Assembly: GCF_009858175.1 (NCBI RefSeq)
Contig: NZ_CP047393.1
Location: forward strand, 2,108,001 to 2,172,000
From: Pontibacillus sp. HMF3514
GTDB lineage: Bacteria > Bacillota > Bacilli > Bacillales > BH030062
Direction of reading: 5' to 3'
Length of the DNA stretch: 64,000 bases
The notes under the pieces are model-generated. The model was given only the letters and a program-made list of their open reading frames with translations. It searched no databases and was not told the origin of the DNA. The position numbers and the translations under genes are program-made. This document shows positions 4,403-54,236 of the stretch, piece by piece (within the stretch, counting starts at the first letter, position 1; each line of letters starts with the position of its first letter).

Positions 4403-4578
4403 GCGGTTCCGTTGCTATTGTGGAGTGCGGTGGGCTTGGGAACGGGTTGCTTTCCCCGGACGAACGATCGAGCCTCCTCATACGCTACGCTTCTTGCGGG
4501 GTCTCGCTCGCCCGTTTTTCCGGAGGAGTCAACCCGTTCCCAAGCCCACCTTAGCCGAATGGTGATGGACGGAACCGC
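4403..4578. repeat. hairpin element A, copy 1 (176 bp)
   Basis: Terminal inverted repeat GCGGTTCCGTT near one end and its near complement at the other. Inside, a 21-nt stem arm at 4429-4449 pairs perfectly with 4530-4550. The core contains a CCTCCTC and TGCGGGGTCTCG block shared with hairpin B. All four A copies are exactly 176 bp. Confidence 0.88.
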
Positions 4579-4599
4579 AGCGATATGAGGAGGTAATGC

Positions 4600-4788
4600 T
4601 TACGGACATTTGTTCCGCTATTTCACCTTAAAATGGTTTTTCTAAAGAGCTTACGGACATTCATTCCGCTAATTGCTGCAAATCACCTTAATAAAGAGCA
4701 ATCTGTCACAAATAAGGTACCATATGTCCGTAACGAACCTCGAAATGCCTTAAAAGTTCAAAATAAAGGAACAGATGTCCGTAAGGGT
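4600..4788. repeat. hairpin element C, copy 1 (inverted CTTACGGACAT motifs)
   Basis: Four copies of a CTTACGGACAT-type motif: two forward (near 4600 and 4650) and two reversed (near 4725 and 4775). The outermost pair forms an 18-bp inverted repeat with one mismatch. It is present only in composite copies 1 and 2. Confidence 0.8.
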
Positions 4789-4806
4789 TAGAGCTCAAAT
4801 AACTAG

Positions 4807-5038
4807 GGTCCGTTAACCTCCATAAACGCAAAGGGGTGAAGGAAACGGCAAACTCCAGTGGTAGCAAAGGGCTGACGAGATCCCGCAGAGAGCTTGCGAA
4901 CGAGGAAGCTGAAAGTAAATAATGAAGATCGACTAAGACCGCCACATCGTGTGGCAACGTCGACCTACCCCACGTCGTGTGGGGCAGCAGGAGGCTTGCC
5001 GTTTCAATGAACCCCTTACTCTTTTCCAGCAACGGACC
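4807..5038. repeat. hairpin element B, copy 1 (232 bp)
   Basis: Bounded by GGTCCGTT and AACGGACC. Inner arms around AAACGGCAA and TTGCCGTTT pair, and two compact hairpins sit in the middle: GCCACA/TGTGGC and CCCCAC/GTGGGG. Confidence 0.85.
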
Positions 5039-5133
5039 TCCACTGCACATTATCTCGATTCCAAGTCTTCAAGATAAGGGGGCTAAAATGGAATATGAAA
5101 AGCTGTCTAAGTTGTATGTATAAGAGTACAACA

Positions 5134-5174
5134 TAAAAAAATGAGCACCAATTGAATTTCAATTAGATGCTCAT
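5134..5174 (-). terminator. rho-independent terminator after the metalloprotease gene
   Basis: ATGAGCA and TGCTCAT arms plus inner AATTGAA/TTCAATT pairing, followed on the minus strand by seven T. Confidence 0.85.
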
Positions 5175-5185
5175 TCCGTTATTTA

Positions 5186-5869
5186 TTAATCTTCGTTCAT
5201 TCCAATAAACATTAGTACAAAACGTATTAGCTCAAGTAAAGCAACAAGAGCTGACGCAACGTACGTCCATGCTGCTGCATTTAATACTTTCTTTGTTTCA
5301 CGTTCTTCGTTATTTCGAATAACTCCCGTTGAGACTAACTGCGACATTGCACGATTGGATGCGTCAAACTCAACAGGTAAGGTAACGAATTGAAACAGAA
5401 CCGCTGCAGCGAAAAATACAATCCCAATACCGAAAAGTCCTGTCATATTTAATAAGGCACCACCGATAATTAAAAAGATGGATAAGTTTGATCCTAAACT
5501 AGCAACAGGAACTAACGTATGACGAAGCCTTAAGAAAGCATAATCCTGTGAATCCTGAATCGCATGCCCTACTTCGTGAGCTGCAACAGCTTGCGCAGCT
5601 GTTGAAGGCTGATGATAGTTATCAGAAGACAAATTCACTACTTTTTTACGAGGGTCATAATGGTCCGAAAGCATGCCTCGTGTTTCATGAACTTGTACAT
5701 CATATAATCCGTTATCATCTAATATTTTTCGAGCAACTTGTGCCCCAGTCATATTTGAAGAGTTCGGTACTTTTGAATACTTTTTATACGTTTTTTTCAC
5801 TCGCATTTGCGCCCATATTGGGATAATGATGATAAATGCTAAATAGATGAGATACGATCCTAAACCCAT
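5186..5869 (-). CDS. neutral zinc metallopeptidase of the YugP family, membrane-bound
   Basis: A 227-aa membrane protein with the zinc protease motif HEVGH at residues 98-102 (context VAAHEVGHAIQDS). Hydrophobic helices lie at residues 5-22, about 115-160 and 195-222. This fits the Zn_peptidase_2 family typified by B. subtilis YugP; the substrate is unknown. GGAGGAATGAAAC precedes the ATG. It ends the ypjA-ypjB gene string and has its own terminator. In B. subtilis yugP lies elsewhere, so its presence here is a lineage-specific placement (recalled, not checked). Confidence 0.88.
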   Translation of the reverse strand: MGLGSYLIYLAFIIIIPIWAQMRVKKTYKKYSKVPNSSNMTGAQVARKILDDNGLYDVQVHETRGMLSDHYDPRKKVVNLSSDNYHQPSTAAQAVAAHEVGHAIQDSQDYAFLRLRHTLVPVASLGSNLSIFLIIGGALLNMTGLFGIGIVFFAAAVLFQFVTLPVEFDASNRAMSQLVSTGVIRNNEERETKKVLNAAAWTYVASALVALLELIRFVLMFIGMNED

Positions 5870-5941
5870 GTTTCATTCCTCCATAGATGTGAAGTTAACT
5901 TGTTCTTCCTAAGAATATTTTAGTCAAAAAAGGTTAAACCG

Positions 5942-6736
5942 TCAACTACCTCGCTCTTTATGTTCTTTTTTATCGTCACTCTCACCTCTATATTTTCTCC
6001 AACCTACATAAGATAATGTACTAATTATGAGCCCACCTACAGAAAAGAGAAGCCATATAAATCCAGGTTCTTCAGTAAAGCTTTTCTCTTCCTTTTTTTC
6101 AGCAGGTATCGCTTTTAAATCGCTTGAGAGTGAATGAATAAATGTTAACTCATCTTGCTTATTTTCACCAGATAAAAAAGCAAGGAATGATTCTTGATGT
6201 TCTTTCATCATTCCATATTCTTCTTTACCTAACGACACTTTCAAAGCTGGCAATAAACGCTCGTACAATGAATAAAGATGTTGTATCGATGCATTTGTTA
6301 TTTGTTCTGCTTCAAGTACACGTGCAATCTCATCTTCTAAATAGGACTTCCAAGTAACCCATAGAGCATCATGTTCATTCCAAATTGAATCATAAAGTAA
6401 TACTACGGTTAAAGCCCTATGGTATTTCTCTTCTGCTGAGGTATTTGTATCTTGAAGAGCAGACTGAGTTTCGTTTATTAGTGTAATTAATTCATCATAG
6501 GATAGTTTCTCTTCAGGAACGATCGAATGCATTTCGTTCACTCTTTTCAATTCCTCCAATTTTGTGATTGCTGCATGATTATGTCCTTCTTTAACAAATT
6601 GTAAGAATTGATATGTAGTTGTTTTGATTTCATCATAATTCGTTTCACTAGCTTGAACATGATTCACCATTACCAGAGAGAATACCAATACAATACTTAA
6701 GACAACTTTGGCTCGTACAATAATATTTTCTTTCAT
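5942..6736 (-). CDS. ypjB: sporulation protein YpjB
   Basis: A 264-aa protein with an N-terminal signal peptide (hydrophobic core VVLSIVLVFSLVMVNHVQA, residues 10-28), an alpha-helical extracytoplasmic domain, and one transmembrane helix near residues 226-245 followed by a short charged tail. This is the architecture of YpjB, a sporulation-associated protein of undefined biochemical role. GAGAGGGGAGCG precedes the ATG. It lies 66 nt after ypjA, probably in one transcript. Confidence 0.82.
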   Translation of the reverse strand: MKENIIVRAKVVLSIVLVFSLVMVNHVQASETNYDEIKTTTYQFLQFVKEGHNHAAITKLEELKRVNEMHSIVPEEKLSYDELITLINETQSALQDTNTSAEEKYHRALTVVLLYDSIWNEHDALWVTWKSYLEDEIARVLEAEQITNASIQHLYSLYERLLPALKVSLGKEEYGMMKEHQESFLAFLSGENKQDELTFIHSLSSDLKAIPAEKKEEKSFTEEPGFIWLLFSVGGLIISTLSYVGWRKYRGESDDKKEHKERGS

Positions 6737-6802
6737 AACGCTCCCCTCTCAATACCTTCTGATTACAATGTATGAAAAGGGAGACAAGTATATGACTTTA
6801 TA

Positions 6803-7393
6803 CTAGAGGTTATAGGTCTTATACAAAGATTTACGCACGGTAAAAACATAGGCAAGCGCAATGGACACAATACTTAGCCAAAATGTGAAGTAGCCAATTT
6901 CATTCATATATGTCATCAAACTCCCATATACAGGCATCATTTCAAAAACATAATCGATGATGTCATTATGTAGGGTCCAAATGCCAGCGAATACTAAATG
7001 TCGAATTTTAATCTTATAGTAAGGTGTGTATAAAAGACCTTGAATGGCCATTGCCCCATGTGAAGCAATCAGCATAAAACCAGTAGGGCTTAAGCTACCG
7101 TTTACCAATAGTAATAAAACGTTCATCACAACTGCCCAAATTCCGTATTTAAATAATGTCACAACAGCAAGGGCTTCTATATAAGGAACATTTCTCCCCA
7201 TTATAAAGAAAGCAAGAAAAACACAAAAGAACAGACTAGCAGTTGGACTGTCAGGTACAAAAATTAAAAAATAATCAGGTGTCACGGCCAACTGACCTCG
7301 ATACCACCAATAGCCATAAATCGTCCCTAAAACATTGACGATGAATAACCATATTAGAAAAAAACGATTTGTTAATACATAACGAATCATCAC
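6803..7393 (-). CDS. ypjA: DUF1405 membrane protein YpjA
   Basis: A 196-aa polytopic membrane protein with roughly five or six hydrophobic helices and no enzymatic motif I recognise. Homologues sit beside qcrABC throughout Bacillaceae as YpjA; the function is unknown. GTG (7393) and ATG (7390) are both feasible after GAGGGATATC. It follows the qcr terminator, so it is probably transcribed separately from qcrABC. Confidence 0.8.
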   Translation of the reverse strand: MMIRYVLTNRFFLIWLFIVNVLGTIYGYWWYRGQLAVTPDYFLIFVPDSPTASLFFCVFLAFFIMGRNVPYIEALAVVTLFKYGIWAVVMNVLLLLVNGSLSPTGFMLIASHGAMAIQGLLYTPYYKIKIRHLVFAGIWTLHNDIIDYVFEMMPVYGSLMTYMNEIGYFTFWLSIVSIALAYVFTVRKSLYKTYNL

Positions 7394-7430
7394 GATATCC
7401 CTCGTTTACATAATAATAAAGCTGAAGTTA

Positions 7431-7466
7431 GAAAAAAAGAAGTTGGCGACTTCCATGCCAACTTCT
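7431..7466 (-). terminator. terminator of qcrABC
   Basis: A 10-bp stem, AGAAGTTGGC with GCCAACTTCT, followed on the minus strand by a seven-T run, 21 nt past the qcrC stop. Confidence 0.9.
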
Positions 7467-7486
7467 ACAAATAAACTTAAAATGTA

Positions 7487-8260
7487 TTATTCACTAGCTT
7501 TTTCACTTACAGACTTAATAAATTCAGCAAGTTGTTGTAATTCTTTGTCACTACCTTTAAACTGACCGGCAGGCATACTTCCAATACCGTTTTTAGCGAT
7601 ATCTTTGATTTCTTCAACTGACTTATCTGTCTGAGTTAAAGCTGGCCCAGCATTACCACCCTCTAAGTTACCACCGTGACAGCTTGCACAGTTTTGCTTG
7701 AAGATTTTGTAACCTGGCTTCTCTTTATCAATCTCAACCGTTTCAACAATTTTTCCAGACTCAGCACGTGCTTCCCAATCTACGTGGTCAGCAGCTTCCC
7801 AAGTTAGCCAAATCGTAGCCGCAACACCTAAAAGCATCATTCCATTTGCAATTGGACGCTGAAAAGGACGGCGACCTGGTCCGCGATCTAAGAAAGGCGC
7901 AAGTAGAAGTGCACCGAAAGCTAATCCTGGAATAATAAATGCACCTAATACAATATATGGTCCACTCGCAAACTCATATTTCAAGAACTGATAAAGGAAC
8001 AAGAAATACCAGTCAGGAAGTGGGATATATCCAGCATCAGTTGGATCTGCCATTTTTTCAAGTGGTGATGGTGCTACTACCGTAAGCACTAGAAATCCAA
8101 TAAGGAAAACTGCACCTACTAACCATTCTTTTAATAAGAAGTTCGGCCAGAACGCTTCAGTTCTACCCGGATACTCTGAATAATCTTTTGGTATATTCGG
8201 TTTCTTTTCGGCAGGGATACGAGAATCTCCTACGAATTTCATACCTTTTCCCCTATGCAT
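7487..8260 (-). CDS. qcrC: menaquinol:cytochrome c reductase, subunit IV/cytochrome c fusion
   Basis: Third subunit of the Bacillus-type bc complex. The first ~150 residues hold three transmembrane helices resembling subunit IV of b6f complexes. The C-terminal domain faces the cell exterior and carries one covalent c-type haem: CASCH at 191-195, with Met229 in GIGSMPAGQF as the likely sixth ligand. The 257-aa length matches the family. AAAGGAGGGAACGCT precedes the ATG. It is the last gene of qcrABC and needs the cytochrome c maturation factors resB/resC/resA at the other end of the window. Confidence 0.95.
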   Translation of the reverse strand: MHRGKGMKFVGDSRIPAEKKPNIPKDYSEYPGRTEAFWPNFLLKEWLVGAVFLIGFLVLTVVAPSPLEKMADPTDAGYIPLPDWYFLFLYQFLKYEFASGPYIVLGAFIIPGLAFGALLLAPFLDRGPGRRPFQRPIANGMMLLGVAATIWLTWEAADHVDWEARAESGKIVETVEIDKEKPGYKIFKQNCASCHGGNLEGGNAGPALTQTDKSVEEIKDIAKNGIGSMPAGQFKGSDKELQQLAEFIKSVSEKASE

Positions 8261-8294
8261 AGCGTTCCCTCCTTTACTTTACAAATTCTTCATC

Positions 8295-8969
8295 TTATAG
8301 TGGTCCAGAAATACCTTGTTTACGGATCATAACGAAGTGTGCACCCATTAAACCAAACAAGGCAGCCGGAAGGAAGAATACGTGAATGGCAAAGAATCGT
8401 GTTAACGTCTGTGCCCCAATAATCTTCGGATCACCAGCTAATAACGTTTTCAATTCAGTTCCGATTAGTGGTGTTTGTTCAGCAATTTGTAAACCAACCT
8501 GTGTTGCGAAGAATGCTTTGTTATCCCAAGGAAGTAGGTAACCTGTGAAACCTAGACCAAGCATAACGAAGAAAATTAATACACCAACAACCCAGTTTAA
8601 TTCACGTGGTTTTTTGTAAGCGCCCTGGAAAAATACGCGCAATGTATGTAAGAACATCATTACGATAACGAGACTGGCACCCCAGTGGTGCATACCGCGT
8701 ACAATTTGACCGTAGGCAACTTGGCTTTGAAGAAACTTTACTGACTTCCAAGCATTCTCAATGTCAGGAACATAGTACATCGTTAAGAACATGCCTGATA
8801 GTACTTGGATTACAGTAATAAAGAATGTTAAACCACCAAAGCAATAAACAAAGGCAGAAAAGTGGTGGGCAGGGTTTACGTGTTCAGGTACTTCGTGGTC
8901 TGCAATATCACGCCATAATGGAGTAATATCTACACGCTCGTCCACCCAATCATATAGTCTTTGAAGCAT
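8295..8969 (-). CDS. qcrB: menaquinol:cytochrome c reductase cytochrome b subunit
   Basis: A 224-aa cytochrome b6-type subunit with four transmembrane helices carrying the haem-ligating histidines (HHWGASLVIVMMFLHTLRVFF near residues 93-113 and AIHVFFLPAALFGLMGAHF near 193-211). The N-terminal DWVDERVDITPLWRDI segment is characteristic of Bacillus QcrB. AGGAGGTGAAGTAAGAC precedes the ATG. It sits 3 nt after qcrA. Confidence 0.96.
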   Translation of the reverse strand: MLQRLYDWVDERVDITPLWRDIADHEVPEHVNPAHHFSAFVYCFGGLTFFITVIQVLSGMFLTMYYVPDIENAWKSVKFLQSQVAYGQIVRGMHHWGASLVIVMMFLHTLRVFFQGAYKKPRELNWVVGVLIFFVMLGLGFTGYLLPWDNKAFFATQVGLQIAEQTPLIGTELKTLLAGDPKIIGAQTLTRFFAIHVFFLPAALFGLMGAHFVMIRKQGISGPL

Positions 8970-8972
8970 GTC

Positions 8973-9488
8973 TTACTTCACCTCCTGATTCGGTACAATT
9001 TCACCTAAGTATAAAACGCCATCTCTAACTTCTGCTTTGTATTGATCTAATGGAGCAAGTGGAGGTGTTCCCGGAACATTATCACCATTTTTTGTGTAAA
9101 GTCCTCCATGACAAGGACAATAATATTGGTTTGCATATTCTCCTTCTTTTTTCCATTCAACAATACAGCCTAAGTGTTTACAAATTGGTGAAAGGGCTAC
9201 GATATCGCCTTTTTCATCTTTGTATACCCAAGCAGTTTTAGATACAGTTGATTTGTACCATGCATCGACTTGCTCATAAGAAAAGTCTACACGCGTAGGT
9301 GTTTTTGTAATACTCGACACCTCTGTACCCGTAGCAATGTAATCTCCTGCTTTTTGAGGTTTAAGCACAGGATCAACCGCAAAGCGTACCATTGGTGCAA
9401 GCATTCCTGCTGCCATAAATCCACCTACACCGGTTAATGTGTAGTTCAAAAATTGTCGACGGGATACTTGTTGTTTTTTGTTACTCAT
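8973..9488 (-). CDS. qcrA: menaquinol:cytochrome c reductase Rieske iron-sulfur subunit
   Basis: A 172-aa Rieske protein. The N-terminus has a twin-arginine-like signal (SRRQFLNY) before a hydrophobic anchor. The [2Fe-2S] ligands are in CKHLGC (103-108) and CPCHGG (124-129), and the two extra cysteines form the usual disulfide. The frame is open to 9521, but AGAGGGGGGAAAACA before the ATG at 9488 decides the start. First gene of qcrABC. Confidence 0.96.
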   Translation of the reverse strand: MSNKKQQVSRRQFLNYTLTGVGGFMAAGMLAPMVRFAVDPVLKPQKAGDYIATGTEVSSITKTPTRVDFSYEQVDAWYKSTVSKTAWVYKDEKGDIVALSPICKHLGCIVEWKKEGEYANQYYCPCHGGLYTKNGDNVPGTPPLAPLDQYKAEVRDGVLYLGEIVPNQEVK

Positions 9489-9564
9489 TGTTTTCCCCCC
9501 TCTATCCATATAATCCAACATTTCATGGTAAGATTCAATTCACACAGTTTACTAGGACAATATT

Positions 9565-9593
9565 ATGATAGCGCAAACAAAGGGCCTGGTCAA
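9565..9593 (-). promoter_or_regulatory. sigma-A-type promoter of qcrABC
   Basis: On the minus strand TTGACC (9588-9593), a 17-nt spacer and TATCAT (9565-9570), about 75 nt before the qcrA start. Confidence 0.65.
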
Positions 9594-9621
9594 TAATGTT
9601 ATTTCAATCCTTGTTCGTGAA

Positions 9622-10089
9622 TTATTCTTGCCAATATGTTGTGATTAATTCCATAACTTGATCAATTTGTGTTCGAATCATATTTTGTGACTCTTTACTC
9701 TGTAAATCATGAGTCTGTCCAGCTGGCACCCAAATTAAATTCCCATGTAATTTGCTCTCTCTTTTCTTCCACTTGTTGTCAAATGTTAAGAACAAAATGT
9801 GTTTAAACCCATTAGCTTGTGCATGCTCAACTAAACCATTAAGCTTTGGGATTTCCTCACTATAATCTCCATCTAAAAGATAAGAATAAGACGGTGCCAA
9901 AAAAATTCGACCTTTGTATTGTTTTTCAATTTCATTCACAAAGATGTCCATTAATTCTGCATGTAAGGCTAGTCTTTTGGTATCCTCGTCGCTACGTGAA
10001 AAGGAGAATGGTACGAAAGGGACTAAAAAAGTATCTACATACTCCTTGGCCTGAACGTACATATCCATATCATTGTAATTCCATTTCAT
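9622..10089 (-). CDS. ypiF: DUF2487 protein YpiF
   Basis: A 155-aa cytoplasmic protein matching YpiF (DUF2487) by position and by its MKWNYNDMDMYVQAKEYVDT start. No catalytic motif is apparent and the function is unknown. It begins after AAAAGGAGTAAAAATA. It lies between ypiB and qcrA, with a terminator upstream and the qcr promoter downstream, so it may be monocistronic. Confidence 0.8.
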   Translation of the reverse strand: MKWNYNDMDMYVQAKEYVDTFLVPFVPFSFSRSDEDTKRLALHAELMDIFVNEIEKQYKGRIFLAPSYSYLLDGDYSEEIPKLNGLVEHAQANGFKHILFLTFDNKWKKRESKLHGNLIWVPAGQTHDLQSKESQNMIRTQIDQVMELITTYWQE

Positions 10090-10199
10090 TATTTTTACTC
10101 CTTTTTCTACAACTATATATAAGCACTGTTTTCATATGTTCTTCCTTAAATTCTAATTTATTACGCCATAAAAATAAACGATATTTTCTTTTTAGACAA

Positions 10200-12071: not shown

Positions 12072-12083
12072 GCCTACACCCTT

Positions 12084-25951: not shown

Positions 25952-26127
25952 ATTGACAGCTCCTTTTGCGTTTGACACAACTTAACGAATGTCATTATAC
26001 CACACGTATGGCATAGACTGTAGGTTGAAGAAATTGAATTTTTTATGAAATCAAGTTTATTTGATATATTTGTTCTATTAAAGCCCCCTTATCTGGAAGA
26101 CTTGGTTTCGAGATAAAGTGCTGAGGA

Positions 26128-26359
26128 GGTCCGTTGCCGAAAAAAGAGTAAGGGGTTCATTGAAACGGCGATACTCCTGCTGCCCCACACGACGTGGGGT
26201 AGGTCGACGTTGCCACACGATGTGGCGGTCTTAGTCGATCTTCATTATTTACTTTCAGCCTCCTCGTTCACTCCGTTCTCTGCGGGGTCTCGGCCGCCCT
26301 TTCTACCACTGGAGTTCGCCGTTTCCTTCACCCCTTGATGTTATGGAAGTTAACGGACC
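26128..26359. repeat. hairpin element B, copy 3 (232 bp)
   Basis: Same 232-bp length and GGTCCGTT/AACGGACC ends as copies 1 and 2. The inner arm reads AAACGGCGA against TCGCCGTTT, where copies 1 and 2 have AAACGGCAA against TTGCCGTTT: one compensated pair. Confidence 0.85.
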
Positions 26360-26497
26360 CAAGGATGAGATCATTTAATATCATGCTTAAGGTGATTTTA
26401 TTTTAGATACTACCCCCTCTACATATAAGGCTTTAGATCACTATAAGAAATATTTGATTTAACCACAGATTTTAAATCAGAAAACCTTACGATAGCT

Positions 26498-26673
26498 GAG
26501 GTTCCGTTCATCACCATTCGGCTAAGGTGGGCTGGGAAACGGGCTGACTCCTTCGGGATAACGGGCGAGCGAGACCCCGCAAGGAGCGTAGCGGATGAGG
26601 AGGCTCGATCGTTCGTCCGGGGAAAGCAGCCCGTTTCCCAGCCCGCCGATCTCCACAAAAGCAACGGAACCAC
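26498..26673. repeat. hairpin element A, copy 3 (176 bp)
   Basis: Stem arms at 26526-26546 and 26627-26647 differ from copies 1 and 2 at three paired positions, each time on both sides, plus one G-T wobble. Confidence 0.88.
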
Positions 26674-26765
26674 TCCGCACCAGCTTATTCAACATAACTG
26701 CCAAATATCGAATAACTCTTTTGATAAAACAAATCCAACTATGCAAGGAAACAATATGTAAACAT

Positions 26766-37767: not shown

Positions 37768-37951
37768 CCTGCCGCTCCTCCTGCAATTTGAGAATCAGTA
37801 TTGTCCACAATAGTTTCTGATACTCACGTAGATTTATACATGAAAAAGAAAGCTGAGCAGTTTAGTTATAGATGTAAGAAAAAAATGAGGAGATAGAAAT
37901 CTTATTCCGTTAAATGGCAGTAATCTGGAATAAGCATCTGAGTGAGAGGGT

Positions 37952-38118
37952 GGGTTCGTTGCTTTTGTGAGGCGTGGGGGTCATTGAAACGGCAATACTC
38001 CTGCGGAAGACCGTCCAAGCCTCCTCATCCGCTACGCTCCTTGCGGGGTCTCGGCCGCCCTTTCTACCGCGGGAGTTTGCCGTTTCCTTCCCCCCATTGG
38101 AATGTAGGTTAACGACCC
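37952..38118. repeat. hairpin element B, short variant, copy 4
   Basis: Keeps the B arms (AAACGGCAA/TTGCCGTTT) but lacks the two central CCCCAC and GCCACA hairpins. Its core, with CCTCCTCATCCGCTACGCTC, matches the core of element A instead. Confidence 0.8.
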
Positions 38119-38268
38119 CAGCTCTAATTAGTTGATCTTCCATAGCGCATCAAAAGTATTATATGTAGATCAGAAATGCCATAAAAACGCTTTATCTCAG
38201 GACTCTAACCCCCTTTTATCTTGTTAAGGTGCAACTAACAAATACCAAACAGAAACACTTATTACGCT

Positions 38269-38444
38269 GCGGTTCCGTTAATCTCATTACGGCTAAGGTG
38301 GGCTGGGAAACGGGCTGACTCCTCCGGAAAAACGGGCGAGCGAGACCCCGCAAGAAGCGTAGCGGATGAGGAGGCTCGATCGTTCGTCCGGGGAAAGCAG
38401 CCCGTTTCCCAGCCCGCCGCACTCCATTAAAGCAACGGAACCAT
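38269..38444. repeat. hairpin element A, copy 4 (176 bp)
   Basis: Stem arms 38297-38317 and 38398-38418, of the same sequence type as copy 3. Confidence 0.88.
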
Positions 38445-38507
38445 ACTCACCTTATCTCGAAATCAAGTCTTCCAGATAAGGGGGCCTTAATGGAATAAAT
38501 GCACAAA

Positions 38508-39312: not shown

Positions 39313-40281
39313 ATGAAAAAAATTCTAATTTTACATACTGGCGGTACGATCTCCATGAAGGAAAACAAACAAACTGGAGAAGTTGCTCCACAAGGAGAGC
39401 ATCCACTTCTAGAAGTGTTACCTTCTTTATCTGGAATAGCAGATATACAAGATGAAGTTTTATTCCATATTCCTTCTCCACACATGACTCCTAACCATAT
39501 GCTTACGTTAGGAAAAAGAATTCATGAACGCCTTGCGAATGAAGATATTGATGGAATTGTTGTAACACACGGAACTGATACACTTGAAGAAACAGCTTTT
39601 TTTCTAGACATTTACTTACAAACACGTAAACCTGTAATCGTAACGGGCGCAATGAGATCAATTAATGAGGTTGGTTCTGATGGCCTTTATAATCTTATGA
39701 CATCTGTCAGAGTAGCATGCTCTGAAGAGGCTCAGGATAAAGGGGTTTTAGTTGTCATGAATGATGAAATTCATACAGCTAAGAACGTCACAAAAACTTC
39801 AACCAGTAACATTGCTACATTCCAAAGCCCACAATATGGTCCTATTGGAATTATTACAAAGCGAAATATCTTATTCCACCATTCATTAACTAGGAGAGAA
39901 TCCTATCCAGTACAGCATTTAAAAAAGCAGGTTGGCCTTGTTAAAACCTATGCTGGTATGGAAGGATCTATCTTCGAAGCCTTTGAGAACGCTGGTATAG
40001 ATGGCCTGGTAATTGAAGCACTTGGACAGGGAAATGTTCCACCAACAATTGTCCAACCCCTGCAACAATTATTAGATAAAGAAATACCTATAGTTCTTGT
40101 ATCCCGTTGCTACCAAGGAATCGTACAAGATGTTTATAGCTATGAAGGTGGAGGGAGCTCACTAAAAGATATGGGCGTAATCTTTTCAAACGGCTTAACC
40201 GGTCCGAAAGCACGAATTAAACTACTGATTGCGTTAGAAATGACAGATAATCATAATGAACTGATGGCCATGTTTGCTTAA
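39313..40281 (+). CDS. ansA: L-asparaginase, type I
   Basis: Hydrolyses asparagine to aspartate and ammonia. The 322-aa protein has LHTGGTISM with the nucleophilic Thr near residue 12 and VVTHGTDTLEETAFFLD near residue 80, and lacks a signal peptide, so it is cytoplasmic. The ATG at 39313 after GGTGATGATA is preferred over 39304. A weak TTCCAA - 17 nt - TATCAT lies upstream. Unlike B. subtilis there is no ansB (aspartase) downstream; the next gene is convergent ypdA. Confidence 0.92.
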   Translation: MKKILILHTGGTISMKENKQTGEVAPQGEHPLLEVLPSLSGIADIQDEVLFHIPSPHMTPNHMLTLGKRIHERLANEDIDGIVVTHGTDTLEETAFFLDIYLQTRKPVIVTGAMRSINEVGSDGLYNLMTSVRVACSEEAQDKGVLVVMNDEIHTAKNVTKTSTSNIATFQSPQYGPIGIITKRNILFHHSLTRRESYPVQHLKKQVGLVKTYAGMEGSIFEAFENAGIDGLVIEALGQGNVPPTIVQPLQQLLDKEIPIVLVSRCYQGIVQDVYSYEGGGSSLKDMGVIFSNGLTGPKARIKLLIALEMTDNHNELMAMFA

Positions 40282-40302
40282 TGCACACGGAAGAGGTGAT
40301 AG

Positions 40303-40393
40303 AAGCATACTAGTTGCCGGGCGCTGGAGCTGTATGTGGCCACGCCCTCACAAAAGAGTTATACACAAGCAAATAACTTTATAATTTCCATAG
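40303..40393. repeat. degenerate short intergenic repeat (type D), copy 1
   Basis: Shares GCGCTGGAGCTG, TGGCC and TATAATTTCCATAG blocks in the same order and spacing with 47948-48053. Both copies sit just after a plus-strand gene and before a bidirectional terminator. Confidence 0.45.
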
Positions 40394-40441
40394 AAAAAGA
40401 TCCGCTCCCCTATCTATTAAGACTAGGGAGCGGATCTTTTT
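40394..40441. terminator. bidirectional terminator between ansA and ypdA
   Basis: A 16-bp perfect stem (40394-40409 with 40426-40441), with A/T tracts on both sides, in the convergent gap. Confidence 0.93.
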
Positions 40442-47371: not shown

Positions 47372-47941
47372 TTGTGGAATTACGAAAAAAAGCTCCAGTA
47401 TCCAGTTCGTGTAAGTACCTGTAACCCTCGTTTAGCAAAATTTTTAATTGAGCAATATGGTGGGGCTGACGGAGAGTTAGCAGCTGCACTACGATACTTA
47501 AACCAGAGATATTCTATTCCTGATAAAGTAATTGGCTTGCTAACCGATATCGGGACTGAAGAATTTGCTCATTTGGAAATGATTGCAACAATGGTATATA
47601 AATTGACTAAGGATGCAACCCCAGAGCAAATGAAAGAAGCTGGACTCGGTGCTCATTACGCGAACCACGATAATGCCTTATTTTATCAAAATGCTGCCGG
47701 CGTTCCCTGGACAGCATCTTATATTGCAGCAAAAGGAGACCCTATCGCTGACCTCTATGAAGACATTGCTGCTGAAGAAAAAGCAAGAGCCACCTATCAA
47801 TGGATTATTAATATGTCAGACGATCCTGACTTAAACGATGGACTAAAATTCCTGAGAGAAAGAGAAATTATACACTCCCAGCGCTTCCGGGAGGCCGTTG
47901 AGATATTAAAAGAAGAAAGAGATAAACAAATTTATTTCTAG
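47372..47941 (+). CDS. cotJC: spore coat manganese catalase-like protein CotJC
   Basis: A 189-aa ferritin-fold protein of the manganese catalase family. It shows the ligand motifs TDIGTEEFAHLEMIA near residue 60 and DIAAEEKARATYQW near residue 132, and EREIIHSQRFREA near the C-terminus. The start is TTG (MWNYEKKLQYP) at 47372 after AAAGGAGG. Last gene of cotJABC. Confidence 0.95.
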   Translation: MWNYEKKLQYPVRVSTCNPRLAKFLIEQYGGADGELAAALRYLNQRYSIPDKVIGLLTDIGTEEFAHLEMIATMVYKLTKDATPEQMKEAGLGAHYANHDNALFYQNAAGVPWTASYIAAKGDPIADLYEDIAAEEKARATYQWIINMSDDPDLNDGLKFLREREIIHSQRFREAVEILKEERDKQIYF

Positions 47942-47947
47942 GGTTCA

Positions 47948-48053
47948 AAAGCGTAAGCGCCCGGGTAGCAACGTATATGCTTGACGCTGGAGCTGGAGGT
48001 GGCCCCACTCTTATTTAGAGTTCGTAAAAGACACAAAATTTATAATTTCATAG
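47948..48053. repeat. degenerate short intergenic repeat (type D), copy 2
   Basis: Contains AAGCGTAAGCGCCC and GACGCTGGAGCTGG and ends in TATAATTTCATAG, as at 40303-40393. The opening resembles a common Bacillaceae intergenic repeat with an AAGCG-AAGCGCC start that I recall from other genomes. Confidence 0.5.
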
Positions 48054-48056
48054 ACA

Positions 48057-48099
48057 ACAAAAAGGACTGCTCTCCTTAAGAAATAGAGGCAGTCCTTTT
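48057..48099. terminator. bidirectional terminator between cotJC and ypbE
   Basis: AAAAGGACTGC/GCAGTCCTTTT stem with an 18-nt loop in a convergent gap. Confidence 0.88.
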
Positions 48100-48109
48100 C
48101 ATTATGTAA

Positions 48110-48772
48110 CTATTGAGGTATAAGAAGCGTCTGTCCAACATAAATTTCTTCTGCTTCTAAATGGTTTGCTCGTATAATGCGCTTTTCCCCATCTTTACTT
48201 TTGTAAAATTTCATTGAGATGGAAAATAACGTGTCGCCTTCCCTCACCACATATTCTTTATATGTAGGGGTTACACCATCTTTCGTGGAAGCAACGTCAT
48301 CTTTATTGGATGTTTCATTATTTCCAGCAGATTCATCTAATGCTTTTTCACTCGGTTCTGTTTCCTCTTTATTGTCTAAGCCTAAAACAGTTTCTGGCGA
48401 TTTTTTATAACGGGTTAACTCCAACATATAACTAGCATCAGATGCTTTAGCAGACTGCACAGAACCAAGTACTCCCCCTGATTCATCCTGCTTCCCCCAT
48501 AAATTATAAATAGGAATTAATAAGGTAAGAATAATGAATAGCACAATTAAGAGCCGAATAACAGGATAACGAACTTTCCACTTATACCCTGTCTTCTTAT
48601 CTTTGTGTGTTTCACTTCTCGGTGGAAGATTTAAAACATCTAAGTCCTCATCGTTTGACTCATAGTACTTATAATCATCTACTTTTTCTGCCATACCTTC
48701 TTCATTCGTATGATGCATTCTTTGCCTTAGCACTTGAGCTTGATCTTCAAACTGTTCCGACGAATTCGACAT
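48110..48772 (-). CDS. ypbE: LysM-domain membrane protein YpbE
   Basis: A 220-aa bitopic protein: cytoplasmic N-terminus (~1-65), one transmembrane helix (IRLLIVLFIILTLLIPIYNL, ~71-90), an acidic Ser/Glu-rich linker, and a C-terminal LysM domain (YVVREGDTLFSISMKFY to the end) that binds peptidoglycan. It is the last gene of the ypbB-recS-ypbD-ypbE string. The function is unknown. Confidence 0.85.
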   Translation of the reverse strand: MSNSSEQFEDQAQVLRQRMHHTNEEGMAEKVDDYKYYESNDEDLDVLNLPPRSETHKDKKTGYKWKVRYPVIRLLIVLFIILTLLIPIYNLWGKQDESGGVLGSVQSAKASDASYMLELTRYKKSPETVLGLDNKEETEPSEKALDESAGNNETSNKDDVASTKDGVTPTYKEYVVREGDTLFSISMKFYKSKDGEKRIIRANHLEAEEIYVGQTLLIPQ

Positions 48773-48776
48773 CCCA

Positions 48777-49358
48777 TCACCCCATTATTTTAAAACGAAT
48801 CAAGAGTCCTAATATAAAATCAATCATAAAATGTGCTGTAATGGTTACAAATAAATTACTTGTAACTTCAAACATCCACCCTAAATAAAAGCTAATTAAA
48901 AGAACAGATATAAGTAAAACTGGTTTTGTTAAATAGCGAATATGCATGAATCCAAAAGCAATGCTTGCAGTAATATAGCCAAATGTTGTGTGAATTACCC
49001 CCCTGAATAAGAGCTCCTCAGCAAAAGCAACAAGGAAAGCAATCCATAATATTTCTAAAACCGGTCGATTACGGAATACTTTCTGATTAATTCCTCCATC
49101 ATCATAAAATCTTTTAGGAAGGACAATCATTAATAATACATCAATAATAAGAACAATAAACCCTGCTGAAACACCATAAATTAAGATTTCATTAACATCA
49201 TACTTCCATAAATCTAGCCATTTCGTCAATGAAGGAAATAAAAATAAACTTGCAATCACTGTAATCGCAAGGATAATCCCTTGAGTTAAATATAAATGGT
49301 TCACCACTTGACGATCAGATAATTGTTTTATGATTTCAGCTTGGTTTGTCCACTTCAT
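48777..49358 (-). CDS. ypbD: CPBP-family intramembrane metalloprotease YpbD
   Basis: A 193-aa protein with about five transmembrane helices and the CPBP/Abi motifs FAEELLFRGVI (EExxxR) near residue 120, FGFMHIRY and a later conserved His. The substrate is unknown. The ATG at 49358 after AAGGGGATTATA makes it overlap the end of recS by 23 nt; the alternative at 49376 would overlap more. Confidence 0.87.
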   Translation of the reverse strand: MKWTNQAEIIKQLSDRQVVNHLYLTQGIILAITVIASLFLFPSLTKWLDLWKYDVNEILIYGVSAGFIVLIIDVLLMIVLPKRFYDDGGINQKVFRNRPVLEILWIAFLVAFAEELLFRGVIHTTFGYITASIAFGFMHIRYLTKPVLLISVLLISFYLGWMFEVTSNLFVTITAHFMIDFILGLLIRFKIMG

Positions 49359-50892
49359 TATAATCCCCTTGTACAAAAATCCTTTTTAGCTCCATTTCCC
49401 AATTCAATGTTTCTGGGGCAGGTGTTTGATGTTTTACAAACCATTTATCAAAACGAAAATCGCAATAATCACAACAGAAGCCGGTTGGCTCTTTTAGAGA
49501 AGATTGAAAAGGCTCATACAAATACGTTCGCCTACACTCATTTTGATGAACCCAATGAAGTAGCCTTGAGAGCTTCTGCTGCTTCAGATTCATTCTTTCT
49601 TCAATAAAGGCTTGAATATGTTGAAAAGCTTTATTCCATTCATTTTCATCATAGAGAATACTTCTTCCATCTATCATATCATGTTTCTCGAATTGATATT
49701 TTAAAAACCGCCAATGAATTTCATTTATTTCTAAAAATGATTCGACTTCACTATCTTGAAGTGGAAGGAACTTATTTTCATTAGCAAGATAAGCTAAATA
49801 ATTCATGACTTTTTGAATGGTATGTTCATCTGGCAACTCACTTTCAAATAACTTCCGAGGAATTTCACCATCCCCGGGTGCATACAACGTTAAACTAACA
49901 CTTTGCTTCCCATCTCGCCCTGCACGTCCGATTTCCTGTAAAAATGATTCTACTTGAGAAGGAATATGGGCATGTATAATCAGTCGAATATCTGGCTTGT
50001 TCACTCCCATACCAAAGGCACTTGTACAGCATATTACATCCAATTGATTGTTCATAAATTGTTGTTGGATCAATAAACGGTCCGTTTGTTCCATTCCTCC
50101 ATGATAAAAGGCAATCCTTAGATCACTTAAAGCATGAGATAGCTCATAAGCAGCCTTTTCTGTCCATTGCCTACTGGTAAAGTAAATCATAGCTGGTACA
50201 CGACCTTCAGATAGCACCTGTTTCATTCTTTCTAGTTTATCTTGCATACTATCTAAGTGTTCTATAGCAAAAGCAATGTTTTCGCGATCCATGGGATAAA
50301 TGTGCTTCTTCATGTTTGGCCGGCCAATTTGCACCATAATATCCTGCTGAACTACCATAGGAGCTGTTGCACTTAATGCCAAAACACGGGGTTCACCTAA
50401 ACGTCGTAATACTCGATCTAGTTTTAAATAATCCGGCCGAAATTCGTGCCCCCATTGTGAAATACAATGAGCTTCGTCAATGACGAAAAGAGAAACATTT
50501 ACTTGTTCTTCAAGCTGTTGTAAAAAGTAATTGTTTTGAAGCATCTCAGGTGAACAATATATTAATTGATAAGCGCTCAGCCTTGTCATGATATCTTTCT
50601 TTTGTTGAAAATCAAGAAAACTGTTGATCGCTGTGACCTGTTTATAACCTTGCTGTTTTAATTGCTTCACTTGGTCAACCATTAATGATATAAGAGGTGA
50701 TACGACTATGACAGTCCCTTCCATAAGTATAGAAGGGAGTTGATAGCACATGGACTTACCAGTTCCTGTTGGTAGAATTCCTAGTACGTCCTCCCCTTTC
50801 ATTAAGTCTTCAATAATTTCTTTTTGACCCTCACGAAAAGAAGTATAGCCAAAAGCTCGTTGTAAATGATCTTCTAATCGTAATGTATTCAT
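49336..50892 (-). CDS. recS: ATP-dependent DNA helicase RecS (RecQ family)
   Basis: A 3'-5' helicase of the RecQ family used in replication-fork repair. The 518-aa protein has Walker A PTGTGKSMCYQLPS (GTGKS 43-47), DEAHCISQWGHEFRPDY, motif VI QEIGRAGRDGK, and a C-terminal zinc-binding cluster starting ECRRTYLYEPF and ending CCDYC. It lacks an HRDC domain, as RecS does. It is preceded by ypbB with a 13-nt gap. Confidence 0.94.
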   Translation of the reverse strand: MNTLRLEDHLQRAFGYTSFREGQKEIIEDLMKGEDVLGILPTGTGKSMCYQLPSILMEGTVIVVSPLISLMVDQVKQLKQQGYKQVTAINSFLDFQQKKDIMTRLSAYQLIYCSPEMLQNNYFLQQLEEQVNVSLFVIDEAHCISQWGHEFRPDYLKLDRVLRRLGEPRVLALSATAPMVVQQDIMVQIGRPNMKKHIYPMDRENIAFAIEHLDSMQDKLERMKQVLSEGRVPAMIYFTSRQWTEKAAYELSHALSDLRIAFYHGGMEQTDRLLIQQQFMNNQLDVICCTSAFGMGVNKPDIRLIIHAHIPSQVESFLQEIGRAGRDGKQSVSLTLYAPGDGEIPRKLFESELPDEHTIQKVMNYLAYLANENKFLPLQDSEVESFLEINEIHWRFLKYQFEKHDMIDGRSILYDENEWNKAFQHIQAFIEERMNLKQQKLSRLLHWVHQNECRRTYLYEPFQSSLKEPTGFCCDYCDFRFDKWFVKHQTPAPETLNWEMELKRIFVQGDYNEVDKPS

Positions 50893-50905
50893 AAAAAATC
50901 CACCT

Positions 50906-51934
50906 CTACTGTGATGCTAATACTAAACGGATCTGAAAATAACTATAATCATCTTCCAAAGCTTCTTTAATGACCTTTAATTTGTTGGTGTTTAAGTGAT
51001 TTGCCACACGGGAAATGTTTTGTACCGCTTCGGTTGAAACAAATTGTTCAACTGAGAAAGAGGGATCCACCAAGGCAATTTCAACGACATGATCTTGAAT
51101 TGTACTGGTTTTTAAACGTCTAATTCTTGTAATGGTTTCAAATGGGTGACCTTTTCGAAGTAATTCTAACGTTTTTTTAGCCGATTGTGTTATCGGTAAT
51201 TCTTGAACCAAGTCATTACAAAAACCAAATAAAAATGGATAGGATTGAGGAGCGTTCAAAACATTATGCAGTAGAAAGTGAATGGCTGATGTTAAATAAA
51301 CATCAACATCTAGCTTTTTTAAGTCAAAATGAAATGCAAGCTGCTCTTTACTCAATCCATACCGGTGAACCCCTGTCATTCGTTGAGTCAAAAATTCTGC
51401 TAGCCATGACGGGAACTGAGAAAACAAGTCGTGTATTTCATTGTATAGGTGATCGAGGAGATTTTGTAAATCATGTTTTTCATGTTGATATTTTGTTTTC
51501 ACCCATTGTAGGATCTCTTTTCGTTCATCGATTGGAATAAATTGATTCTGACCTTGTTCAATATTTGAAGCTGTCTGAACAAATAATAAAAATCGCGACC
51601 AAAATAATTGGTCCATTTGATGGTATTGTAAACCATTTAGCCATTGAATTGACTCGACAGTGTCGCGTTGTATCTCAGATAACCCATGTGATGTAACCAG
51701 ATATTGACCCTGCTCCTCTAGAATAAACCCTTTAGCTTGAAGATCTAGAAGTTCTTGGTGTAGCTCTTCTCTCTTTAGTGAGCGGCAAATTCCAAATAAA
51801 GAAGTGAGGTTATAAGCGTGAATATCTTGGAAAGTTTGGGATGATCGTTTACCTACAAGCATATGATAGATGGCGGCTTCTGTTCGCTCACCTTTAAATG
51901 CGGAAATACTATGTATTAATAAATGTTGAAACAA
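50906..51934 (-). CDS. ypbB: YpbB, HTH domain protein cotranscribed with recS
   Basis: A 342-aa protein whose C-terminal ~100 residues (HPFETITRIRRLKTSTIQDHVVEIAL) form a helicase-associated HTH_40 domain. In B. subtilis ypbB always precedes recS, and the pair may act together; the biochemical role is not established. The start is TTG at 51934 after GAGGTAGCTACA. Confidence 0.86.
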   Translation of the reverse strand: MFQHLLIHSISAFKGERTEAAIYHMLVGKRSSQTFQDIHAYNLTSLFGICRSLKREELHQELLDLQAKGFILEEQGQYLVTSHGLSEIQRDTVESIQWLNGLQYHQMDQLFWSRFLLFVQTASNIEQGQNQFIPIDERKEILQWVKTKYQHEKHDLQNLLDHLYNEIHDLFSQFPSWLAEFLTQRMTGVHRYGLSKEQLAFHFDLKKLDVDVYLTSAIHFLLHNVLNAPQSYPFLFGFCNDLVQELPITQSAKKTLELLRKGHPFETITRIRRLKTSTIQDHVVEIALVDPSFSVEQFVSTEAVQNISRVANHLNTNKLKVIKEALEDDYSYFQIRLVLASQ

Positions 51935-52003
51935 TGTAGCTACCTCACTTTTTTAAGCGATATTTTATATCCTGATGTGGCCCGTCCCCTAGACGATTTA
52001 ATG

Positions 52004-52032
52004 TTGAAAAGTTTAAAAAGTAGCTTTACAAT
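52004..52032 (+). promoter_or_regulatory. sigma-A-type promoter of fer
   Basis: TTGAAA (52004-52009), 17-nt spacer, TACAAT (52027-52032), about 90 nt before the fer ATG in the divergent ypbB-fer gap. Confidence 0.65.
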
Positions 52033-52119
52033 AAGATTGAGGCGAATGTTTCCAAATCAGGATACTTATATATGTATTAATAGATCCTTTTCGGATCATG
52101 ATTTTATAGGAGGGTATGA

Positions 52120-52371
<252 letters not shown>

Positions 52372-52379
52372 TTGTTTAG

Positions 52380-52408
52380 ATCCCTTCACTACAAAGTGGA
52401 GGGATTTT
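52380..52408 (+). terminator. terminator of fer
   Basis: ATCCCT-CACT/AGTG-AGGGAT stem followed by TTTTT. Confidence 0.85.
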
Positions 52409-52414
52409 TATATG

Positions 52415-52867
52415 TTATGATATTGAAAGTTTTTTCAGTTTGTCTAACGCTTCTTCTTGATCAAAAGAACTAAAATATCGGTAGAATTGATCATCGATTA
52501 TTCGATAATGTTGGCTAATTACATTTTGCTGAAGTGTAAAGCCACCTCGTTCTTCTACTTTTGACCACCAAACTTTACCGCCCATAGTTCGTTGTTTCGG
52601 ACGATCAACATGCTCATGAGCTACTGTTTCCAAAACCTCAATCGGTTCAGCTCCAAGTGTGTTTTGAATAACTTCGCTGTCTCGAAATAGTGCACACATT
52701 GCAACAACAGTCGTCCATCCTGCTCCAGTGCGACCCTTTTCGATTTGGACAAGTGTTTTTTTAGAGATTCCTAAAATCACTGCCATGCGATCCTGTGTGT
52801 ACCCATTCTCCACACGTACAAGCTTTAGTTTTGACGAAAGTTGTTCAACGATCATTTGTTGATCCAT
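52415..52867 (-). CDS. XRE-type helix-turn-helix transcriptional regulator
   Basis: A 150-aa cytoplasmic protein. Residues 11-65 are an XRE-type HTH (KLKLVRVENGYTQDRMAVIL, SKKTLVQIEKGRTGAGW). The C-terminal half (KVWWSKVEERGGFTLQQNV) is unassigned. The start is uncertain: ATG at 52867 after GGTGACACAA, or 52879. It is convergent with fer and divergent from ppa, so it could regulate ppa; that is speculation. Confidence 0.8.
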   Translation of the reverse strand: MDQQMIVEQLSSKLKLVRVENGYTQDRMAVILGISKKTLVQIEKGRTGAGWTTVVAMCALFRDSEVIQNTLGAEPIEVLETVAHEHVDRPKQRTMGGKVWWSKVEERGGFTLQQNVISQHYRIIDDQFYRYFSSFDQEEALDKLKKLSIS

Positions 52868-52944
52868 TTGTGTCACCATTCCAATCTTATTTCGATAACA
52901 ATATTTTAACACGTTCTCTACTTTCCTTCCTACTAAAATGTTGA

Positions 52945-52950
52945 TATAAT
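52945..52950 (+). promoter_or_regulatory. extended -10 promoter of ppa
   Basis: TGATATAAT (TG-n-TATAAT) with no good -35, about 50 nt before the ppa ATG. Confidence 0.5.
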
Positions 52951-53000
52951 ATGAAGCCGTAGGCACATACATAAATTTTGTATCAATAGGAGGATGTCGT

Positions 53001-53489
53001 ATGGCTGAAAATAAAGTATTAGACGTGTTTATCGAGATTCCGACAGGAAGTCAAAACAAATATGAATATGATAAAGAACAAGGTGTCTTTAAACTAGACC
53101 GTGTACTATTCTCTTCTCAATTCTATCCAGCTGAATATGGGTACATTGATGAAACACTCGCGTTAGATGATGACCCTTTAGATGCATTAGTACTAGTAAC
53201 AAATCCAACATTCCCTGGTTGTGTTATTGAATCTCGCGTTATCGGATTCCTAAACATGATTGATGATGGTGAAGAAGACCAGAAGCTTCTAGCTGTACCA
53301 ACAGAAGATCCTCGTTTCAAAGATGTACACACACTAGATGATGTACCTCAACACAAACTTGAAGAGATTGCTCATTTCTTCAAGACGTATAAAGATCTTC
53401 AAGGTAAGATTACAGAAATCGGAGAATGGGAAGGCGTTGAAGCAGCAAACAAGCTTATCGACGATTGCCTAGCTCGTTATAAAGGGTAA
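53001..53489 (+). CDS. ppa: inorganic pyrophosphatase, family I
   Basis: Soluble hydrolase that removes pyrophosphate. The 162-aa protein has EIPTGSQNKYEYD near residue 12, EYGYIDETLALDDDPLDALV with the signature acidic residues near 56-62, and FKTYKDLQGK. It is the E. coli-type family I enzyme, not the family II (PpaC) enzyme of B. subtilis. AGGAGGATGTCGT precedes the ATG. Confidence 0.96.
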   Translation: MAENKVLDVFIEIPTGSQNKYEYDKEQGVFKLDRVLFSSQFYPAEYGYIDETLALDDDPLDALVLVTNPTFPGCVIESRVIGFLNMIDDGEEDQKLLAVPTEDPRFKDVHTLDDVPQHKLEEIAHFFKTYKDLQGKITEIGEWEGVEAANKLIDDCLARYKG

Positions 53490-53502
53490 TAACTTTAATA
53501 GG

Positions 53503-53535
53503 AAAAGCAGTGCATCATGAGTGCACTGCTTTTTT
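53503..53535 (+). terminator. terminator of ppa
   Basis: AAAGCAGTGCA/TGCACTGCTTT stem followed by TTTTTTATTTT. Confidence 0.9.
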
Positions 53536-53600
53536 ATTTTACTTATTCTATTAAAGGCCCCTTATGTTGAAGACTTGGATTCGAGATAATGTGCAGTGGA

Positions 53601-53832
53601 GGTCCGTTGCTGGAAAAGAGTAAGGGGTTCATTGAAACGGCAAGCCTCCTGCTGCCCCACACGACGTGGGGTAGGTCGACGTTGCCACACGATGTGGCGG
53701 TCTTAGTCGATCTTCATTATTTACTTTCAGCTTCCTCGTTCGCAAGCTCTCTGCGGGATCTCGTCAGCCCTTTGCTACCACTGGAGTTTGCCGTTTCCTT
53801 CACCCCTTTGCGTTTATGGAGGTTAACGGACC
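53601..53832. repeat. hairpin element B, copy 2 (232 bp)
   Basis: GGTCCGTT/AACGGACC ends, CCCCAC/GTGGGG and GCCACA/TGTGGC central hairpins; same length as copies 1 and 3. Confidence 0.85.
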
Positions 53833-53849
53833 CTAGTTATTTGAGCTCT

Positions 53850-54039
53850 AACCCTTACGGACATCTGTTCCTTTATTTTGAACTTTTAAGGCATTTCGAG
53901 AGTCGTTACGGACATATGGTACCTTATTTGTGACAGATTGCTCTTTATTAAGGTGATTTGCAGCAATTAGCGGAATGAATGTCCGTAAGCTCTTTAGAAA
54001 AACCATTTTAAGGTGAAATAGCGGATCAAATGTCCGTAA
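53850..54039. repeat. hairpin element C, copy 2
   Basis: Inverted CTTACGGACAT-type motifs as in copy 1, in the opposite orientation. Confidence 0.8.
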
Positions 54040-54060
54040 GCATTACCTCCTCATATCGCT

Positions 54061-54236
54061 GCGGTTCCGTTAATCTCCATTCGGCTAAGGTGGGCTTGGG
54101 AACGGGTTGACTCCTCCGGAAAAACGGGCGAGCGAGACCCCGCAAGAAGCGTAGCGGATGAGGAGGCTCGATCGTTCGTCCGGGGAAAGCAACCCGTTCC
54201 CAAGCCCACCGTACTCCACAATAGCAACGGAACCGC
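54061..54236. repeat. hairpin element A, copy 2 (176 bp)
   Basis: Terminal GCGGTTCCGTT/AACGGAACCGC is a perfect 11-bp inverted repeat. The 21-nt stem arms 54089-54109 and 54190-54210 pair without mismatch. Confidence 0.9.

Follow-up and report, generated by a model that had tools for sequence, protein, structure and literature searches.

The window analysed here is the whole 64,000-nucleotide stretch of the Pontibacillus sp. HMF3514 genome at positions 2,108,001 to 2,172,000 of contig NZ_CP047393.1, and the subject is a gene-free repeat family that occurs in it four times. Each repeat is a composite of 0.6–0.75 kb with a short end (P), a hairpin (B), a spacer, a second hairpin (A), and another short end (Q). 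An earlier note on this DNA had described hairpin A as a 176-bp repeat. On re-reading the sequence, all four copies are 176 bp long with a 21-bp stem at the coordinates it gave: copy 1 at 4403–4578 on the minus strand, and copies 2 to 4 at 26498–26673, 38269–38444, and 54061–54236 on the plus strand, with covariance model scores of 155.6, 163.6, 163.3, and 164.1 bits, respectively. One arm of the stem reads GGTGGGCTTGGGAACGGGTTG or GGTGGGCTGGGAAACGGGCTG, and the far arm pairs with it. Arm positions 9, 12, and 19 do carry the double-sided differences described, and position 3 is T-A versus T·G as stated, but the two stem types had been assigned to the wrong copies (1 and 2 against 3 and 4): copies 1 and 4 are of type TTGGGAACGGGTT, and copies 2 and 3 are of type TGGGAAACGGGCT. 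The 176-bp length is correct, while the unit is not a whole repeat; it is an inner module of a unit of approximately 600–750 bp that contains a second, homologous hairpin.

This second hairpin, module B, is inverted relative to A, and the covariance model detects four A and four B modules in the window, always on opposite strands. With limits set by eye, composite copy 1 lies at 4354–5096 (minus strand), copy 2 at 26070–26715, copy 3 at 37902–38498, and copy 4 at 53543–54285 (all plus strand). Three are arranged as P-B-spacer-A-Q, and copy 3 has exchanged ends (Q-B-spacer-A-P). Module B is located at 4805–5040 on the plus strand in copy 1 (79.2 bits) and on the minus strand at 26126–26361 (73.1 bits), 37951–38120 (153.1 bits), and 53599–53834 (79.2 bits) in copies 2, 3, and 4. 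The P and Q ends each contain a small imperfect hairpin. In copy 1 both are on the minus strand, P at 5050–5096 with the small hairpin TTATCTTGAAGACTTGGAATCGAGATAA and Q at 4354–4389 with the sequence CAGTTATTCAAGATAACTACC...GAATAA; in copy 4 both are on the plus strand, at 53543–53589 (P) and 54250–54285 (Q). The spacer of copy 1 (4600–4784) contains three copies of the partial palindrome TTACGGACANNNGTTCCGCTA with 0–2 mismatches, and that of copy 4 (53855–54039) contains three with 1–2 mismatches. As judged by eye, terminator-like hairpins of the flanking genes adjoin composite copies 1 and 4.

An Rfam scan of the window gave no match to module A. The Bacillaceae-1 RNA motif (RF01690) scored above the Rfam gathering score at three sites, each with 68.3 bits and each within module B: 4917–4983 (plus strand) in copy 1, 26184–26250 (minus strand) in copy 2, and 53656–53722 (minus strand) in copy 4. 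Module B of copy 3 has no such match. In three further sets of hand-picked loci the motif was present in 13 of 20 (all 13 from the HMF3514 genome, one of them being window copy 4), 2 of 7, and 1 of 20.

The suggestion, drawn from four copies, that the fold itself is conserved was upheld well beyond those copies. A profile made from the four window copies retrieved A and B modules together from the HMF3514 genome, the sister species (G002), and a few relatives. It yielded 247 non-overlapping matches, from which 57 truncated ones were excluded; identical ones among the 190 full-length sequences were collapsed because some of them represented one place in overlapping loci, which left 158 distinct sequences, of which 92 are A-like and 66 B-like. 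In an event-based test, Fitch changes were counted on a FastTree tree and the substitutions were re-placed at random columns in 200 shuffles. Module A had 23 compensatory double changes, in 20 different pairs, against an expectation of 1.67 ± 1.29 (shuffle maximum 6; 92 sequences and 59 pairs), and module B had 23, in 17 different pairs, against 1.62 ± 1.20 (shuffle maximum 5; 66 sequences and 54 pairs). The trees are approximate because the copies recombine. The fold of both hairpins is thus kept by compensatory change. An R-scape-like column-pair statistic, a type of check that had been proposed along with the claim, gave a mixed and weak result on the joint A and B alignment, in which the two modules are out of register: four pairs were significant, of which two are base pairs of the structure and two are not. 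Similarly, the covariance model from a 26-row alignment contained 29 pairs only and a small covariation term; the low pair number was probably caused by the register shift between A and B. The 26 rows were drawn from 28 representatives after exclusion of the defective L158 and the chimeric L187. The latter (1542–1714, from G002) combines a left arm of B type with a right arm of A type, and the two are mismatched in the mid-stem.

When only pairs present in the folds of both strands are counted, terminal branches carry 106 one-sided changes and 8 double ones, and internal branches carry 24 and 29, respectively. The one-sided changes are therefore mostly young. The earlier note had cautioned that repair between the arms could also produce the paired differences. 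Nearest neighbours in the HMF3514 genome with four or fewer differences (49 pairs) exhibited 33 one-sided changes and 1 double change, so that any arm-to-arm repair must be slow; the caution falls for fast repair and stands for slow repair.

The hairpin is widespread outside the genus, across the order to which the Bacillaceae belong, and many spore-forming bacteria retain its fold with altered letters. Of 120 genomes sampled from this order, 86 gave a match to the hairpin model, as did 54 of the 73 genera; no more than 22 candidates were scored per genome, and the E-values are rough. Four of the 120 genomes are Pontibacillus, and three of those four contributed sequences to the model. From 20 loci of 20 genomes, 19 were folded (one was too short), and the median z score was −6.5. 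The outer stem was absent in L206, L209, and L210, and z was weaker than −3 in L204, L206, L209, and L216.

The ends of the element are clearest in relative G110. All 20 near-identical 175-bp copies listed for this genome were fetched, and in 16 of them the terminal sequences GGCTCTGTTAAA...TTTAACAGAGCC are flanked by exact 8-bp direct repeats; the remaining four have repeats of 9, 7, 2, and 0 bp. In a control, no equal repeats occurred among 380 mispaired flanks. A 235-bp relative with an extra insert was found as ten pairs in the same genome, and six of the seven that were fetched have exact 8-bp duplications. Among eight loci read for their ends in the order-wide set, L203 (G110) and L208 (G011) have exact 8-bp pairs, L211 and L214 have pairs matching at 7 of 8 positions, and L201, L205, L207, and L212 lacked paired ends of this kind. 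Fifteen plasmid records, from Priestia, Peribacillus, Bacillus, Paenibacillus, Radiobacillus, and Niallia, contained matches to the L208 hairpin, none of which covered more than 80 per cent of the query, while module A gave no match to plasmids. Within Pontibacillus, 3 of 20 stretches fetched from genome G005 are composites with IS1595-like ends, and exact GGCTCTGTTAAA sequences occur beside hairpins at three places in this genome.

The same end sequence was found around transposases of the IS1595 family. Such transposases (PF12762) were detected above the cut-off in 4 of 21 genomes. Each of the five loci above the Pfam cut-off (L265, L266, L267, L268, and L270), none of which is in G110, has at least one GGCTCTGTTAAA end, and three of the transposases score 205–216 bits with the NCBIfam IS1595 model (NF033547). 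At L265 and L270 both ends are present, with the sequence GGCTCTGTTAAANNNNANTGTTGAT, and the 8-bp duplications are exact; one end is present at L266, L267, and L268. The G110 miniature inverted-repeat transposable element (MITE) fits the whole GGCTCTGTTAAANNNNANTGTTGAT pattern at one end and differs at one position at the other. In L266, from Pontibacillus G005, one end matches and the left end is diverged; TTATAAAT is present on both sides if the left end starts one base further in. AT-rich 8-bp repeats have been published for the IS1595-family element ISApl4 (PMC12561309, in the part consulted), and a 165-bp IS1595 MITE with inverted repeats of 25 and direct repeats of 8 is tabulated for Haloquadratum walsbyi (PMC3852290, likewise in part).

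Other candidate movers were rejected. The IS6 family was suggested by the look of the ends, but there was no PF13610 match above the cut-off in six genomes; the ends of the sub-threshold matches were not read. A search of seven genomes for ISL3-type genes (PF01610) gave one in G110 and two in G108, and their fetched flanks lacked paired GGCTCTGTTAAA-like ends. An 891-bp pair with perfect GGCTCTGTTAAA ends in G110 (L250, 1001–1891) contains a 133-aa open frame. It was discarded as an autonomous copy because no transposase and no target duplication were seen, and is possibly a passenger-carrying relative. The lone ends at L260 and L262 had no transposase in their listed open frames. Separately, eight places in the HMF3514 genome (L239–L246) share an equal sub-threshold score to the IS240 transposase domain and a 289-aa open frame, and probably represent another insertion sequence of this genome.

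In the HMF3514 genome, searched as one contig of 3.98 Mb, 90 elements bounded by a P and a Q end were delimited. The P end had 114 matches with up to three mismatches and its reversed pattern had none; a two-part pattern for module A gave 122 matches, where an intact copy may match twice, against 0 for the reversed control. By mechanical gene calls, the open frames on either side of the element are tandem in 60 cases, convergent in 27, and divergent in 3. The arrangement of B on the minus strand followed by A on the plus strand recurs in loci of other Pontibacillus genomes. In some elements an array of approximately 21-bp tandem repeats replaces the hairpins between the same P and Q ends (L093, L101, L102, L107, and L114; in L107 the Q end alone was found). 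One composite, at L065 938–1716, lies directly 3′ of a 5S rRNA gene.

Sites of these elements were compared with the sister species. Eleven HMF3514 sites have both flanks in the G002 stretches examined; ten of them hold an element or a remnant there. No clean empty site was found among the 11, since the sole element-free site, L037, is not clean. The printed sites (L100, L034, L004, L044, L097, and L001) have flanks and some outermost bases in common between the two species, and the interiors differ at several of them. The G002 interior is a tandem array at L034, the site of window copy 3, and at L097, which includes a run of N in the G002 record. At L001, the site of window copy 4, it is inverted, with 670 of 718 bases in the inverted match. 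The inverted match also exceeds the colinear one at L040, L004, and L081, less clearly, since the near self-complementarity of each hairpin blurs the two coverages. At L016, L044, and L006 the match is mostly colinear, with 81–86 per cent in the best colinear pieces as compared with 90–94 per cent in the flanks, and L100 is truncated in G002. Swapped and inverted interiors at the same sites are most simply accounted for by recombination between copies. At two places in G002 the flanks of different HMF3514 elements adjoin (L032 with L012, and L013 with L015), which suggests chromosome rearrangement with breakpoints at elements. These places are L148 4605–6758 and 13926–16289.

Taken together, the hairpin appears to be a module of a gene-free IS1595-type MITE family with a conserved fold, moved in trans by an IS1595-type transposase, and the HMF3514 copies appear to be old and reshuffled by recombination. 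We assign this reading a probability of about 0.72. In species with young copies, the hairpin lies between short inverted GGCTCTGTTAAA ends, flanked by 8-bp duplications of AT-rich target DNA. Because these ends and 8-bp duplications are like those of IS1595 insertion sequences, an IS1595-type transposase acting in trans is the most likely mover, and its supply would mobilise the gene-free hairpin element. In Pontibacillus, two mutually inverted hairpins are built into the 0.6–0.75 kb composite with its own ends P and Q, which may have moved by the same route. Most change in the old-looking copies of HMF3514 would now come from recombination of one copy with another, in which the interior is swapped or inverted and the flanks and the outermost ends stay in place. 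Compensatory change in both hairpins implies that the folded form matters to the element, possibly as cruciform or hairpin DNA during mobilisation or as RNA.

Several observations weigh against this interpretation, particularly for the composites. Matched offsets around the ends of 86 HMF3514 elements gave no signal of 8- or 9-bp repeats (an anchor was missing in four of the 90 elements for this test, and in two of the 90 for each end profile); they gave an excess of 3–5 bp repeats, which was largest inside the ends. The P and Q ends (TTATTCCRTTAAA) resemble GGCTCTGTTAAA loosely. The 8-bp flanks of the three G005 composites have 1, 2, and 1 mismatches, and 64 of 1376 control flanks agreed with no more than one mismatch. 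The HMF3514 genome, G002, G001, and G004 gave no match to the IS1595 transposase domain (PF12762), and G110, which has the clearest young copies, contains two sub-threshold IS1595 fragments only (L269 and L271). When the hairpin model was applied to the seven IS1595 loci L265–L271, it matched at L266 only, outside the insertion sequence. The link of the hairpin family to IS1595 is therefore good for the family, and indirect for the composites of the window because they show no target duplication.

As an alternative, the fold might be kept because the module is transcribed into a functional structured RNA, of the host or selfish, with mobility being incidental. We regard this as a tentative possibility. 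It accords with the strong covariation in A and B and with the presence of a published candidate RNA, Bacillaceae-1, in hairpin B, although that motif is missing from one of the four window B copies. For an RNA selected on one strand, G·U would be expected to outnumber A·C among lasting mismatches. In pairs that occur in the folds of both strands, the ratio of G·U to A·C on the module strand was 10:2 for internal branches and 35:21 for terminal ones (45:23 for the events combined), and the cell counts were 37:16 in A and 32:14 in B, an excess in both despite their opposite strands. This excess is small (two-sided binomial 0.04 internal and 0.08 terminal), and with such a mild, weak signal the selected form may be either RNA or DNA. 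Further points against an RNA are the opposite directions of A and B, the near-random orientation of elements relative to tandem genes (26 of 60 in one direction), and the small covariation term in the 26-row alignment. Alternatively, the paired changes could come from arm-to-arm correction, by template switching or repair in a long quasi-palindrome, with no selection on the fold, a proposal that we consider rather doubtful. Copying of one arm onto the other would yield the observed share of double transversions (18 of 46 double changes), which is near the transversion share in one-sided changes (72 of 158), and in the young copy L145, located at the site of L029, one pair has flipped from C-G to G-C among only four differences. 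The one-sided changes in close copies argue that correction is not fast. Moreover, many copies have recurrent mismatches within the B stem, and two large subfamilies are fixed for T·G at arm position 3 of A; quick correction would erase both, and selection on a specific shape fits them better.

Alternatives that concern the role and the movement of the whole composite are less probable. If the composites were bidirectional terminators or insulators kept by the host between genes, their placement between tandem or convergent rather than divergent genes and their presence, as elements or remnants, at 10 of 11 orthologous sister-species sites would be expected. Promoter avoidance is equally expected of a tolerated parasite, however, the genes beside copies 1 and 4 have terminator-like hairpins of their own, and the sister species has a tandem array as the interior at the same site, so that this role seems unlikely. 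The differing interiors could also be taken as a gene-free cassette system. In such a system, fixed docking sites with ends of approximately 15 bp would persist through speciation, and a dedicated recombinase reading the P and Q hairpins would exchange a folded payload, either paired hairpins in either orientation or tandem repeats, whose fold would be selected as a recombination substrate. We consider such a system quite improbable. Palindromes of the IS200/IS605 or REP/RAYT type have asymmetric ends and make no target duplication. Single-strand mobilisation of this type, with the end hairpins as recognition sites, would suit the small imperfect hairpins in P and Q and the HMF3514 copies without target duplications. 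The relatives have 8-bp target duplications and symmetrical inverted ends shared with a DDE transposase, which makes such mobilisation very unlikely.

Similar hairpins are common in Bacillaceae genomes. The family resembles IS1595-family insertion sequences and MITEs in its ends starting with GG, its 8-bp AT-rich target duplications, its short gene-free derivatives, and the same end sequence around IS1595-family transposases of related genomes. It differs in that the hairpin is kept over many genera with compensatory change and in that the Pontibacillus composite pairs two inverted hairpins with diverged ends, in a genome without a detected IS1595 transposase. In comparison with these systems, the composite would be a MITE with an unusually well kept fold. 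The Bacillaceae-1 RNA, as far as its source covers it (PMC2864571, in part), corresponds to a 67-nt insert in hairpin B of three of the four window copies, not to the whole element, and many B copies lack the insert. The closest modular analogue is the pneumococcal BOX element, which by its description (PMC3049150, in part) is likewise gene-free and strongly folding with fixed end modules and variable middles; two large inverted hairpins and IS1595-type relatives distinguish the present family. A Porphyromonas gingivalis MITE with an internal minisatellite (PMC4596501) is comparable by description to the elements with approximately 21-bp tandem repeats between P and Q ends, although its host is another one and the tandem array is here one of several interiors between the same ends. 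The stem-loop repeat families Bhal-1 and Bhal-2 have been published for Bacillus halodurans (PMC2267715, in part). In the open-access literature, none of the matches listed, by title and abstract opening, reports the composite or connects the hairpin with IS1595; subscription papers lie outside this scope.

A hairpin repeat present in most sampled genomes of the order, for which the present Rfam scans reported the Bacillaceae-1 insert alone, has now been linked to an enzyme family that probably mobilises it. As a candidate RNA, Bacillaceae-1 may be a passenger of mobile DNA, and its published status as an independent RNA deserves re-examination. Since the repeat family offers both young and old copies, selection on the fold, as DNA or RNA, can be tested against arm repair, and the differing interiors at conserved sites of two sister species provide a test bed for recombination between short dispersed repeats.

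Other features of the window include a cobalamin riboswitch on the minus strand at 57757–57945. Two other intergenic stretches, at 40281–40395 and 47940–48059, differ in length from those of the sister species, and the G002 version at the former site contains repeated small hairpins.

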